This document shows positions 1,721 through 63,202 of a stretch of 63,202 nt of DNA, in pieces. Below the pieces are notes generated by a model. That model was not told the origin of the DNA, did not search any database, and saw nothing but the letters and a program-made list of their open reading frames with translations. The stretch is from Isotricha intestinalis (taxonomy: Eukaryota; Ciliophora; Litostomatea; Vestibuliferida; Isotrichidae). Made by a program: the position numbers and the translations under genes. The stretch lies in contig JAJJLU010003512.1 in NCBI GenBank assembly GCA_023807065.1, positions 1 through 63,202 of the forward strand. The letters are read 5' to 3'. Position 1 is the first letter of the stretch; every line of letters starts with the position of its first letter.

Positions 1721-3054
1721 TTAAAAACAAGAAGATTTACTTTGAGCTGCATTTTTATCTAATTCTAATAGTTTTTTTTCATCTAATTTTATAACTAAAT
1801 ACATATCATAAACCAAACAAAATACAATATCACTTACATTTAAATCCCATTTACAGCTAATTTCAATAAATTTCATTTTTTCATTAAAAGCAATTTTTCT
1901 TCCTTGTTCAGCATAAATTTTTCGTTCTTCAATTAAATCAACTTTATTTCCAAGTAAATAAACAATTAAATGTTCATTTCCAGTTTTTCTAATATCTTTA
2001 GTCCACTGAGAAATATTATTAAAACTTTCTTCATTAGTAATATCATATATTAAAATGATTCCGTCGGCTTTTTCATAATATTTTTGAGGTATGGTTTTAA
2101 ATCTTTTTTGACCTGCTGTATCCCAAATTTGAATTTTAAAAATTTTGTTATCAATTTTAACATATTTACTTGTTTCATTTATTCCTAAAGTACTTGTAAA
2201 AGAATCTGAAAATTCATTTAAAAAAAACCTTCTAAAAAATGCAGTTTTTCCAACTGTCGTATCACCTAACAATATTATTTTAAATTCGTTATATAATTCT
2301 TCTTCTTCTATATTATTAGTTAATGGAAGTATTTTTTGTTTTGGTGGAGATATTTTTTTTATTATTTCTTTTGATATATTTTTTTCATTTGAGAAAAGTT
2401 GAATAGGAGGAGATAAATAAATTTTTGTTTTGAAAGTGTTTATTATTATATTTTTTAGTTTTAAAATATTATGTTTTGTTATGTTTGATATTGAAATATA
2501 TACAATAGGAATATTTAAATATTTATTTGAATCTAAGTCTTTACTCATTGAGCTTTCCCTAGAAAAACTATTATTTATAAGATCATTAATTTCATTTTCT
2601 TCAACTTCACTTTTTTCAATATCATCAAAAGAACTTACTAAAATAATATTAATACATTCATTTTCATTATTACTATTCTTTATTGTTAAATATGATATTA
2701 ATTTCCTTATTTTTGAAAAAGTATAATACTTAGTTTTATCAAATATAATAATAATACATTGACATAAATAAGAAAGAGAAGGAAGAATATTTAAATTCAT
2801 TGTATTAAATTCCATTACCTGAAAATATTTTTTTTTTTTTTCTTCAATTTTCATTGAAATTTTAAATTCATTAAATACTATATAAAAGTGATTAAAAGAG
2901 TATTATTTTTACTCGTTGGCTTCTCTGCCTGCGAGTTATTAATTGAAAATAAATTTTCTATCAAAGAAGTTTTTCCTACTTTATTTTCTCCTATAACTAC
3001 TAGTTTTTCATAGAAAGAATAATCAATTCCATCTTTTATTTTATTCCTTTCCAT
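1721..3054 (-). CDS. Tandem Rab-like GTPase with degenerate first domain (2 exons)
   Basis: A small GTPase protein of about 432 residues assembled from two exons, 3054-2913 and 2877-1721. The intron at 2878-2912 joins the frames exactly. The first exon carries a P-loop, GENKVGKTS (residues 22-30), then a switch-I-like PT. The rest of that first domain is degenerate: no DxxG, and SSFD where NKxD is expected. A second, complete Rab domain follows: GDTTVGKTA (252-260), WDTAGQK (near 300), GNKVD (near 357) and an ISCK G5 box. The C-terminus ends SSCF, not the CC or CxC prenylation motif of typical Rabs. The gene is divergent from NAT10 across 47 bp. A role in membrane traffic or ciliary transport is inferred from the family only. 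Confidence 0.85.
2878..2912 (-). other. 35-nt intron of the tandem GTPase gene
   Basis: On the minus strand it begins GTAAAAATAA and ends TATATAG. Removing it turns a stop-broken reading into one continuous frame (exon 1 leaves one base, exon 2 supplies two, giving Ile). The 5' end resembles the first intron bases of the PKG gene. Confidence 0.85.
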
Positions 3055-16078: not shown

Positions 16079-17192
16079 CTAACATTTGCATTGAGATTTT
16101 TGTATTATTGTTTTTTCATGACATATATTCTCATTTAAATTTTTTTTACCTCTTCCATTGATTATTGTTTCTCTATAAGTATTTTCAATCAATGTTTCAA
16201 AAGCATCTGCAACATTATTGTCTTCAAGACAAGAAGTTTCCATAAAAATATAATTATTTTCTAAAGCTAATTCTGAGGCTTCTTCAGAACTTATTGTTCT
16301 TTCATTTTCCAAATCAGTTTTATTCCCTAATAAAATTACTTTTACATATTTAGGGCATTTATCTTTTATTTCTTGATTATAATAATTTTTTATTTCTTCA
16401 AAAGATTTTTGGTAAGTAATATCATAAACTAATAAACAACAATCTGCTCCTCTATAATATTGTGTATTTAATGCTTTAAATCTCTCTTGTCCAGCAGTAT
16501 CCATTATTTTTACATTTATAAGTGAACCATCAGATAATTTGTATGTATTAAAATAATGAGGTAAACCTATTGTATTAATTTGAATTAAGGTCGATTTTTG
16601 ATTTATAAAACTAAAATAGTTAATTTTTATTTGTTACGTTTGAATTAAACTTGTTTTTCCGACTCCAGAACATCCTAATGTGATTACTTTATTTATTAAA
16701 ATATAATAAATATAATATTATTTTACATGTAATATATATTATATCCTTCCCTTCTTTTTTAAGTTTTGAAGATTCTTCAAAAGAAAGTCTATGAAATTGT
16801 GATTTTTTTTTTTTCATTTTTTTTCTGAGATTATTTTTATCTGGGCAAGAATTATAATGTGATTGTATTTTTTCATATTCTATTTCATTTTCACAATTCA
16901 AACATTTAAATTTTAATTTTGATAATATATCTTTTTTCCCTAAGCTCCTCTGATAATTTGGATTTTCACATCTATTAGGACATTTATTATCTTTTTCTTT
17001 CCATTGATCTATACATTTCTTGCAATATACATTTTGACATTTCATACACATCATTTGATCAATCAAAATATTAAAGCACAAAGGGTATGTTATTAATTCT
17101 TTAAATGTATTATAAATGACATCTTTTATGACTGATTCATCATTAATATATTTTTCCATTTTTATTATTTTGAAATTATGGTATTTATTCAC
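16079..17192 (-). CDS. RING/TRAF-type zinc finger fused to a Rab GTPase (3 exons)
   Basis: One gene of three exons, 17192-16727, 16686-16638 and 16610-16079, giving 348 residues; both introns restore frame exactly. The N-terminal half is RING-like: ligand positions Y36 (normally Cys), C39, C49, C52, C57, C60, C71 and C75, then a TRAF/SIAH-like C96, C99, H111, C115. A basic linker (RKKMKKKK) follows, then a complete Rab domain: P-loop GCSGVGKTS (160-168), TIG switch I, MDTAGQERF, GNKTDL and an ETSC G5 box. The C-terminus QCKC is a CxC double-prenylation signal. Each half looks like a separate gene until the introns are removed. A membrane-anchored, GTP-switched ubiquitin ligase or adaptor is inferred. 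RING plus ARF (TRIM23) is the nearest known idea. The first Met (17192) or the Met 11 codons later may start it. Confidence 0.8.
16611..16637 (-). other. 27-nt intron 2 of the RING-Rab gene
   Basis: It begins GTAACAAATA and ends CTATTTTAG on the minus strand. Splicing joins the P-loop helix (TSLIQ) to TFINQKSTLI and the TIG switch-I motif with no gap relative to Rab proteins. Confidence 0.85.
16687..16726 (-). other. 40-nt intron 1 of the RING-Rab gene
   Basis: It begins GTAAAATAAT and ends ATAAATAAAG on the minus strand, and contains the TAA that would otherwise end the RING half. Splicing joins DIIYIT to LITLGCSGVGKTS, which has the spacing expected for a Rab first strand and P-loop. No ATG lies between the two halves in the Rab frame, which supports fusion. 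Confidence 0.7.
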
Positions 17193-60440: not shown

Positions 60441-61516
60441 TTATTATATATTTTTTGTTTATATTTTTTTGTTTGTTGAAGGAATTGATAATTCTTAGTA
60501 AATAAATGAAAGTTAATTTATTGTTGTATATAATATAATTTAGAATTTTTATTATAATGAAATTTATTTTTTTTATTTATATTTTTTCAAATAATATTAA
60601 TAGTAATAATTTAAATTATTATTATTTTACCTTATTTAAACTTAATTTATAATTTGAACAAATAAAAATATTGAATAAATAAAAAAAATTGAAAACATTA
60701 CTCAAAAGTAAAACATTGAGAAATAAAAAAGATGATAAAAATGATAGTTTAATATATAATGATAATATTAAAGAAAAATGTGAAAAAAATATATTTAATG
60801 AAATATATAAATATAGATTTAATGAAAAATGAAAGATATTTATTGAAAATATAAGGGGTTATGAAATTATTTTTTATATAATATATTAAATGAAACTTTA
60901 GAATTTTTATTAGTTTTTTGAAAAATATAAGCAATTTAAATATTTAAAAAAAATTAATTATTTAAAAAAAAAATTATTATTATTTAAACTTTATATATTT
61001 ATTTAATAAGATAAAAATTATTTATTTTATGTTGCCACAATTATTCTTCTTTTATAATACAATATTTTCCACTGAACTTATGAAATTATTGTTTTTCATA
61101 ATTTCTTTTACTTTTACTATTTGATTAAAAATTAATCAAAAAAATAATTTTAATGAATTTTTCTAATCTCCTCATATATCTTAAAAGAGAATACAATATA
61201 AAAGATTATTGATTATCTTATAAATATATAAAAGTGTTATTTTAATTCATTTAATTATTTATAAAAATATTAAAATTAATGAATTAAAATCCCAATTAAT
61301 CAATCCTTTTTGTAAATTCATAATTAATTAATTAACAATAAGAACCATGAAATTATTTAAAATTTATCATTACATGTAATTATCAGTAAAACAAATCTAA
61401 AAAAAAATCAAAAACAAATTAAAAATGTTGTAATTCAATAACTGTATTTGTTAAATAATTAATAATGTTTAGTCATACTATAAATAATGAAATCTTAAAT
61501 TAAATTGTATAAAAAA
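60441..61516. other. Intergenic, 1.08 kb with one relic
   Basis: AT-rich spacer. Apart from the relic at 60689-60890 no gene, RNA or repeat is recognised. The first 40 bases after the PKG stop are T/G-rich. Confidence 0.5.
60689..60890 (+). pseudogene. Short coding relic broken by TGA
   Basis: One frame reads LKTLLKSKTLRNKKDDKNDS, IKEKCEKNIFNEIYKYRFNEK, then TGA at 60830, then KIFIENIRGYEIIFYIIY and TAA, after which stops multiply. Continuity across the TGA suggests a decayed exon rather than chance, but AT-rich Lys/Asn/Ile composition makes this uncertain. Confidence 0.3.
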
Positions 61517-63202
61517 ATGTCAGCTGAAGAACCAACCCAACCAACAGTTCCACCAACAGAAGAGGAAAAAGCCCCAGAAATTCCTCCAACAGAAGAGGAA
61601 AAAGTAGAACAACCAAAGCCTGAAGAAACTAAATCAGAAGAACCGAAACCTGAAGAACCAAAAGTTGAAGAGCTTAAACCAGAAGAACCAAAAGTAGAAG
61701 AACCAAAAGTTGAAGAACCTAAACCAGAAGAACCAAAAGTAGAAGAACCAAAAGTAGAAGAACCTAAACCAGAAGAACCAAAAGTAGAAGAACCAAAAGT
61801 TGAAGAACCTAAAGTAGAAGAACCTAAAGTAGAAGAACCAAAAGTTGAAGAACCAAAAGTAGAAGAACCAAAAGTTGAAGAACCTAAACCAGAAGAACCA
61901 AAAGTAGAAGAACCTAAACCAGAAGAACCAAAAGTAGAAGAACCTAAACCAGAAGAACCAAAAGTAGAAGAACCTAAAGTTGAAGAACCTAAAGTTGAAG
62001 AACCTAAAGTAGAAGAACCAAAAGTTGAAGAACCAAAAGTAGAAGAACCTAAAGTTGAAGAACCTAAACCAGAAGAACCAAAAGTAGAAGAAACTAAACC
62101 AGAAGAACCAAAAGTAGAAGAACCTAAAGTTGAAGAACCAAAAGTTGAAGAACCTAAAGTAGAAGAACCTAAAGTTGAAGAACCAAAAGTTGAAGAACCT
62201 AAACCAGAAGAACCAAAAGTAGAAGAACCTAAAGTTGAAGAACCTAAAGTTGAAGAACCTAAAGTTGAAGAACCAAAAGTTGAAGAAAAGAAGCCTCAAC
62301 CTGTAGAAGAAAAAAAACCAGAAGTAGTAGAAGAAAAAATTAAATCAAGTGATAAAAAAGTATTTAATATTTCCCTTCCATTGATTCAAAAAATAAGTGA
62401 TTAAAACCAAATGACCCAGAATCTTCATTAATAGAATTTATCACATCAAATGGATTACCATATGATTTACAATGTGAAAATTGTATATCATTATATTAAT
62501 ACTTCCATCAAATGCTTATTCCATTTTATTCAATATTATCAAAAATAAAAAAAGATGAAGTAAAAAGGGATGCCTTAAAAGAAAAATTTCAATTAGTTTC
62601 AAAATCGAAAACAAGCATTTTAATTTTGATGAAATTGGAAAATCACTTAACGGAAAAATAACTAAAAAATTAGATGAATCAGAAGTTTCAAAAATTTCAA
62701 TTGAAATTGGAGAACGGACAAAAGGAAATTTCAATTTAAATAAAAACTTACTTTCTTTAGGAGAAAAAGGACTTGGAAGATTAGATATATATATTAAAGT
62801 ACATATTATTAAAAGTATTATATTATATTTAGGTATTGATGAACTAGCTACTTTTACTCAAAATTTCAAAACAATGGAAGATGATTTAATGAAAATTAGT
62901 GAAATTGCTGAAAAGGAAAAATTCACTATGGAAAAATATAATGATATGGTTAATTTTTTTGCAAATGAAGAAAAAAAAATGATTGGTATCAAGTATTAAA
63001 TCAATTAAAAAAATTATTAATTTTTTTCTAAAATGTTAATGATCAAGAATCAATTAATAATTTAGAAAGATTATATGTTCAATTATTAGGTCATTTTGAA
63101 AGAGAATGTAGAAATGAAGCTATTGAAGTTTTAACAATGATATATGATGAAAGTAATTGGGAAGATAAAGCAGCATATAATATTCAAAATACTAGAATTA
63201 AG
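61517..63202 (+). pseudogene. Decaying gene: PKVEEP-repeat N-terminus plus a broken C-terminal domain (cut by window end)
   Basis: The first 295 codons (MSAEEPTQPTVPPTEEEK, the repeat, then KVFNISLPLIQKISD) are intact to TAA at 62402. Downstream the plus strand stays coding-like in shifting frames: PNDPESSLIEFITSNGLPYD, stop TAA at 62497, YFHQMLIPFYSILSKIKKDE, a one-base shift near 62602, HFNFDEIGKSLNGKITKKL, GIDELATFTQNFKTMEDDL, another shift near 62975, DWYQVLNQLKKLL, TAA at 63029, and then ERLYVQLLGHFERECRNE to the window end. An intron-like GTACAT..TATTTAG lies at about 62797-62830. Two stops and three shifts, each shift in or near a homopolymer, point to a pseudogene or to sequencing errors; the 299-codon N-terminal half alone could still be expressed. 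Family unknown. Confidence 0.6.
61641..62286 (+). repeat. 15-bp tandem array encoding P-K-V-E-E / P-K-P-E-E
   Basis: More than forty 15-bp units (CCAAAAGTAGAAGAA, CCTAAAGTTGAAGAA, CCTAAACCAGAAGAA and close variants). Protein units are almost invariant while synonymous third positions (CCA/CCT, GTA/GTT) vary and recur in blocks. That pattern indicates spread by unequal exchange with selection on protein composition. The encoded chain would be extended, Pro-ordered and acidic/basic alternating. Confidence 0.95.

Follow-up and report, generated by a model that had tools for sequence, protein, structure and literature searches.

A predicted spliced gene for a RING–zinc-finger–Rab protein in the ciliate Isotricha intestinalis

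The window analysed here, a stretch of 63,202 nucleotides (nt) from the ciliate Isotricha intestinalis (contig JAJJLU010003512.1), contains on its minus strand one predicted spliced gene that encodes a RING–zinc-finger–Rab protein. After removal of two introns the predicted product comprises 337 amino acids (aa) and consists of a RING finger, a C2HC zinc finger (ZnF), a linker and a Rab domain with a CxC end. We propose, with a probability of about 0.6, that it serves as a prenylated, GTP-switched platform that would bring RING-dependent ubiquitylation to a membrane. Multidomain G proteins, among them RING-ARF and Rab-SOCS, are already known; the pairing of a RING-ZnF module with a Rab is an unusual one.

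Gene structure and recurrence of the fusion

The initial annotation placed the gene at 16079..17192. A gene is indeed present there and reads from the minus strand. Going along that strand, the first ATG in frame comes at 17159, rather than 17192, and the TAA stop lies at 16081-16079. When the strand is read unspliced, the RING-bearing frame halts at 16691-16689 and the Rab-bearing frame occupies 16633-16079, and the TAA at 16689 that had been pointed out is real if intron 1 stays in. Candidate GT..AG pairs were scanned with the donor and acceptor of intron 1 placed anywhere from 16842 to the P-loop (16675), the donor of intron 2 at most 80 nt past the P-loop and its acceptor at most 80 nt beyond that donor. 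Exactly one combination gives a stop-free frame that runs from the ATG through the P-loop into the Rab body, and it corresponds to the two small frame-restoring GT..AG introns (40 and 27 nt) suggested at the outset. Other short GT..AG introns in this genome give sensible joins in two of the three ordinary Rab genes tried (52 and 49 nt). The features of the gene are as follows:

16079..17159, minus strand: whole gene, ATG to TAA, 337-aa spliced RING-ZnF-Rab product (sequence, frames, splice scan)
16727..17159, minus strand: exon 1, with RING, C2HC zinc finger and linker (splice scan; homologous exon-1 pieces P0121-P0126)
16968..17087, minus strand: RING finger, residues 25-64 (Y25, C28, C38, C41, C46, C49, C60, C64; W53) (Pfam, alignment)
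16845..16904, minus strand: TRAF-like C2HC zinc finger, residues 86-105 (alignment; fold match to TRAF6/RAG1/LNX)
16728..16790, minus strand: linker RLSFEESSKLKKEGKDIIYIT, residues 124-144 (resembles the linker of homologues and of the kinase-Rab protein P0043)
16687..16726, minus strand: intron 1, 40 nt, phase 1 (splice scan; same codon in 8/8 read-through homologues examined)
16638..16686, minus strand: exon 2, contains the P-loop (splice scan)
16652..16675, minus strand: P-loop GCSGVGKT, residues 149-156 (sequence)
16611..16637, minus strand: intron 2, 27 nt, phase 2 (splice scan; P0124 and P0126 stop at this point)
16079..16610, minus strand: exon 3, remaining Rab domain and C-terminus (Pfam Ras, 5.4e-41)
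16484..16501, minus strand: switch II DTAGQE, residues 198-203 (sequence)
16313..16324, minus strand: NKTD, residues 257-260 (sequence)
16082..16090, minus strand: C-terminal CKC, end of the double-prenylation type (sequence)

The same architecture was found in other sequences. Of the 5708 matches to the whole protein, the best 120 include P0001 (350 aa, Pfam RING and Ras), P0002 (354 aa) and P0005 (388 aa), and a search with residues 1-158 returned eight proteins, namely P0001, P0127 (361 aa, an uninterrupted fusion) and the exon-1 pieces P0121-P0126. Protein searches were limited to lengths of 0.55-1.75 times the query, and therefore shorter exon-1 pieces cannot show up. RING-Rab is encoded as one uninterrupted open reading frame (ORF) in three homologues (P0001, P0002 and P0127), and P0005 and the six exon-1 pieces agree with this gene in layout and in the codon interrupted by intron 1. 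When five fusion proteins were used as a profile, the 120 listed of 5121 matches included no additional complete RING-Rab; P0002 was missed too, and therefore such match lists are incomplete.

With exon-1 ends chosen by eye from several pattern matches per protein, the codons that follow the linker in P0121-P0126, P0005 and P0043 are compatible in 8/8 cases with N|GT AAN, i.e. with a phase-1 intron that interrupts the codon in question. P0124 and P0126 run through intron 1 into VITLGD..VGKTSLINT and terminate at the start of intron 2. A P-loop exon in a shifted frame, followed by a stop, is hidden in 4 of 180 proteins (P0005, P0121, P0043, P0034), compared with 0/180 reversed and 0/180 shuffled proteins.

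These results bear on the possibility that two adjacent genes, one for RING-ZnF and one for a Rab, merely appear fused. The TAA at 16689, in frame if the transcript is unspliced, would fit two genes; however, the 49-nt exon 2 that carries the P-loop has no in-frame start codon, and therefore a separate Rab gene cannot begin at that exon, while a single splice solution restores the frame and relatives have three uninterrupted fusion ORFs and intron positions in common with this gene. We rejected separate genes on account of the startless P-loop exon and the recurring fusion, and consider them very improbable. An assembly artefact joining two loci, conceivable insofar as the join is known from a single assembly, is hardly credible, since the same join is repeated in other contigs at 37-46% identity. 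The initial annotation had claimed a single polypeptide and suggested that relatives be searched for the same fusion; the fusion homologues and the common intron-1 site support the single polypeptide and the two introns well.

The RING–zinc-finger head and the Rab domain

The RING finger, the RING-like cluster noticed initially, has the spacing [Y]-x2-C-x9-C-x2-C-x4-C-x2-C-x10-C-x3-C and matches Pfam zf-C3HC4_2 (1.1e-5, 25.6 bits) below the gathering cut-off of 27. It is followed by a zinc finger of the TRAF type, C86-x2-C89-x11-H101-x3-C105. The predicted model of exon 1 is confident (predicted local distance difference test 80-89 per block, residues 21-100), and the fold matches of the module include TRAF6, TRAF2, RAG1 and LNX1/2, which supports the 'RING/TRAF' label of the initial annotation at the level of fold. 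The proteins with such RING-ZnF modules, TRAF6/TRAF2, LNX1/2, RNF125 and RAG1, are not known to have a GTPase domain. Nine zinc ligands (C28, C38, C41, C46, C49, C64, C86, C89 and H101) are invariant in 10/10 alignment rows. In 14 RING paralogues fetched from the I. intestinalis genome, all of which fit a pattern starting with C-x2-C, position 43, where a RING normally has His, is occupied by N, H, K, S or G, with C38 and C41 unchanged. The absence of His at 43, where C38 and C41 stay, suggests a putative all-Cys second zinc site, which we take to be C4C4-like, as in CNOT4.

The Pfam comparison of exon 3 identified Ras (5.4e-41) far ahead of Arf (4.8e-8), and all five G motifs are present (GCSGVGKT, T174, DTAGQE, NKTD and ETSC). 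The nearest solved relatives of the GTPase (G) domain by sequence are Rab8A and Rab11 (among the matches listed, 60 of 135), and the fold matches for the G domain of the P0001 model are Rabs (among the matches listed, 50 rows). Of the RabF motifs, ERFKALN, YYRGA and LVYDIT fit the consensus, and IGLPHY and NVKIMD differ from IGVDFK and KLQIW. The C-terminus is a double-Cys end of the prenylation type, QCKC in the window protein and CC in P0001. By sequence and model the G domain is Rab8/Rab11-like, and the complete Rab domain ending in CxC had been recognised correctly. P0081, a metagenome Rab of 390 aa, has a long extension at its C-terminus and lacks a prenylation end.

A number of observations weigh against a ubiquitylation platform. 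The RING is scored weakly by Pfam: among the scanned sequences only P0001 exceeds the cut-off (27.3 vs 27), the others reaching ~16-26 bits. The first RING ligand, Cys in 9/10 alignment rows, is Tyr (Y25) in this copy only among the compared sequences, exactly as the initial annotation had read it (TYPLC); position 60 is likewise Cys in 9/10 rows (P0002 lacks it), Asn replaces the usual His at 43 in this copy, and C105, the final ligand of the zinc finger, varies, with none in P0001 and a shift by one residue in several rows. With 7/8 of the cross-brace zinc ligands of a RING ubiquitin ligase (E3), this copy is therefore described as RING-like and not filed as an E3. On the Rab side, function is not kept in every fusion homologue: the catalytic Gln is absent in P0001 and P0127, the C-terminal Cys is absent in P0002 and P0005, and P0127 ends in CTKCW. 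The P-loop/switch region (151-190) of the P0001 model has low confidence (37-56), as does the linker, and therefore no inter-domain geometry can be claimed.

Given the Tyr, reduced ligase activity in this copy is a serious alternative, and the initial annotation's caution on this point was right. A further one is that the RING is a non-catalytic head for adaptor function or dimerisation, and that the protein is a large Rab whose head binds effectors, following the logic of RASEF/Rab44. The Tyr and Asn substitutions and the weak RING scores across the family are consistent with such a head; yet all eight RING Cys positions are kept in 8/9 other alignment rows (P0002 lacks one) and active E3s make up most of the top fold matches. 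W53, presumably the Trp of RING fingers that contacts the ubiquitin-conjugating enzyme (E2), is also present. We regard a purely non-catalytic head as possible, if rather unlikely.

Paralogues, metagenomic relatives and genome context

The genome (57.3 Mb, 2153 contigs) is rich in Ras-superfamily genes, with 621 candidates, of which 150 were scored and 150/150 match. The RING search gave 34 matches, the window and 33 others. None of the 14 fetched loci (L006-L019, up to 1.5 kb on each side) has a Rab on the same strand near the RING; L009 has two Rab matches beside it, both on the opposite strand. For the other 19, contig numbers compared by eye with the best-150 Rab lists revealed no contig in common. 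A RING head was not seen in 20 Rab loci picked for introns or long ORFs, nor in C1096 (L055), and a paralogous RING-Rab fusion was thus rejected within this set of loci. Six of the RING paralogues (L007, L008, L009, L011, L012 and L013) have, past the RING and zinc finger and in place of the Rab, a second Cys-rich motif that we take to be ZZ/DC1-like.

These counts touch on whether the gene is a degenerating relic of a family that is active elsewhere and decaying here. No close paralogue of the fused Rab was found among 150 of 486 candidates scored (runner-up 122 bits vs 404 for self), relatives are many in metagenomes, and one RING ligand is lost, all of which would suit a relic; the Rab motifs, splice sites, CxC end and remaining zinc ligands are nevertheless intact and there is no stop or frameshift, which makes decay improbable.

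A tree was calculated for 64 G domains, comprising a sample of 24 Rabs from this genome and 40 rows picked by similarity to the query (5 RING-Rab proteins including the window, 34 metagenome Rab pieces and 1 kinase-Rab); the P-loop portion is missing from P0005 and from the exon-3 rows, and the bootstrap had not settled. The 40 rows are split from the 24 sampled Rabs with a support of 100/99 by a branch of length 0.7. RING fusions are spread over 3/4 sub-branches of the 40-row group, and the RING label requires 4 changes, equalled in 63/500 shuffles, i.e. it is not significantly clustered. The tree fits either one putative ancient RING fusion followed by radiation or several fusions, because the N-terminal heads of the 34 Rab pieces are unseen. 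Viral contigs gave no match; the prokaryote genomes gave 12 loci, all in archaeal metagenome-assembled genomes, and the two with frames read (L061 and L062) encode GTPases without RING. L062:4692-5732 is a Lokiarchaeal protein with ~175 residues ahead of a Rab-like GTPase domain and no RING seen.

In the metagenome protein P0043 (426 aa), a Pkinase domain (2.6e-36) precedes a linker and a Rab that both resemble those of the window protein. The donor of its second intron implied by the protein letters (by hand) would be AT, not GT, and therefore splicing is doubtful there and P0043 is only a lead; in P0029, its near relative, the corresponding donor, also derived by hand, is compatible with GT. 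In the I. intestinalis genome kinase matches lie close to a Rab in four loci (L037, L042, L044 and L046). In two of them, L044 and L046, an upstream kinase frame on the strand of the Rab closes with its own stop 578 and 220 nt ahead of a Rab frame with its own Met, and we read these as probably neighbouring genes. The only match outside the window that spans linker and Rab, C1096, was also rejected as a kinase-Rab and reads as an ordinary one-intron Rab. The Rabs just downstream of the kinase frames in L044 and L046 have a homologous-looking N-terminal extension.

We tentatively speculate, while holding it to be somewhat less probable than its contrary, that litostome ciliates hold an ancient Rab clade with a fixed linker-intron-P-loop-intron-Rab cassette, at whose N-terminus enzyme heads such as a RING-ZnF ligase or a protein kinase could be exchanged. 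The clade would have radiated, and on chosen membranes GTP switching would control, in cis, either ubiquitylation or phosphorylation. Should the kinase-headed relative prove real, the clade would provide a natural head-swapped Rab set for asking how a GTP switch governs the attached enzyme.

The genome is AT-rich, uses the standard code and has CCCCAAT telomeres, a repeat also known from Litostomatea ciliates. The GC content of the window is ~19%, and the window frames of at least 200 codons (n=27, real genes or not) stop at TAA (23), TAG (2) and TGA (2). The repeat (CCCCAAT)3 has 840 forward and 746 reverse matches in the genome (reversed control: 0); among the matches listed, the forward ones occupy the first 71 bases of contigs and the reverse ones are at high coordinates, telomere-like. 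It was not found at the window's own ends. Muniziella, a litostome ciliate, combines this telomere repeat with the standard code (PMC11316547); on these features the genome would most likely be that of a litostome ciliate of the gut type.

Two other ORFs of the window deserve mention. A 393-aa ORF (1721-2902, minus strand) begins with what we read as a degenerate GTPase-like half and continues as a complete Rab with the end SSCF; relatives with the same layout occur in this genome in L042 (twice), L043 and L045 and form one starred clade of the tree, which does not include the window copy. An ORF on the plus strand (61499-62404) is built of EEPKVEEPK-type repeats.

Known systems and proposed function

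TRIM23/ARD1 resembles the window protein in having an N-terminal RING and a C-terminal Ras-superfamily G domain in one chain; its G domain binds a substrate whose ubiquitylation requires the RING at the other end of the chain (PMC11217408, PMC2533329, PMC8358228). The initial annotation had named this RING plus ARF combination. It differs in having an ARF, two B-boxes and a coiled coil, where the window protein has a Rab and one C2HC finger, no B-box match, a Ras score far above Arf and Rabs as the nearest structures. To our knowledge, TRIM23 belongs to the animal lineage and has no prenyl end, and Rab40 has no RING of its own. The Rab40 subfamily is similar to the proposed role in that a Rab brings ubiquitylation machinery (Rab40C brings a ubiquitin-ligase complex to a partner, and the negative mutant is inactive), but unlike the window protein it does so by a SOCS box behind the Rab that recruits Cullin5 (PMC4359733); Pfam gave no SOCS match for the window protein. 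The large Rabs Rab44, Rab45/RASEF and Rab46 also combine an N-terminal module with a C-terminal Rab, but the module consists of EF-hands and a coiled coil, RING or zinc fingers not being named in the accessible text (PMC8303950), and the window protein has no EF-hand match in Pfam. The statement that Rabs are single-domain switches was therefore too strict, given the EF-hands of Rab44/45/46 and the SOCS box of Rab40 (PMC8303950 and PMC4359733). RNF115/Rabring7 is a RING E3 that binds or modifies Rabs, RING and Rab being separate proteins, unlike here (PMC9279554).

In protists, lineage-specific multidomain ARFs (the ciliate ARF-RSP3, the Malawimonas Rab-BTB-BACK-Arf) join a G domain to extra, sometimes ubiquitin-linked modules; RING-Rab is not mentioned alongside them in the section available (PMC8358228). 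By term search, RING, ubiquitin and zinc finger are absent from a Tetrahymena Rab survey (PMC2954822), and RING is absent from a large Rab survey, which counts Rab44 and Rab45 among the three Rabs that carry an additional domain (PMC3425129). Among the matches listed in text searches of open-licence PMC papers, the titles and abstract openings show no RING-Rab fusion.

The membrane-recruited, GTP-switched ubiquitin adaptor or ligase that the initial annotation inferred is plausible and has precedents. For the ubiquitylation platform that we favour, the CxC end would be prenylated by Rab escort protein and geranylgeranyl transferase, and the GTP-bound form would reside on a particular endomembrane, with the Rab domain picking place and partners. 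The N-terminal RING-ZnF would recruit an E2, and proteins at the membrane, or the Rab itself, would be ubiquitylated while the switch is on. With one zinc ligand of its RING lost, this copy may have only weak ligase activity or may serve chiefly as an adaptor via the zinc-finger surface. The effectors that a Rab recruits are normally separate proteins, and ubiquitin ligases usually reach membranes through partners. A Rab and a RING in one chain would couple membrane identity directly to ubiquitylation, in parallel to TRIM23 (with ARF) and Rab40 (with SOCS), using different parts.
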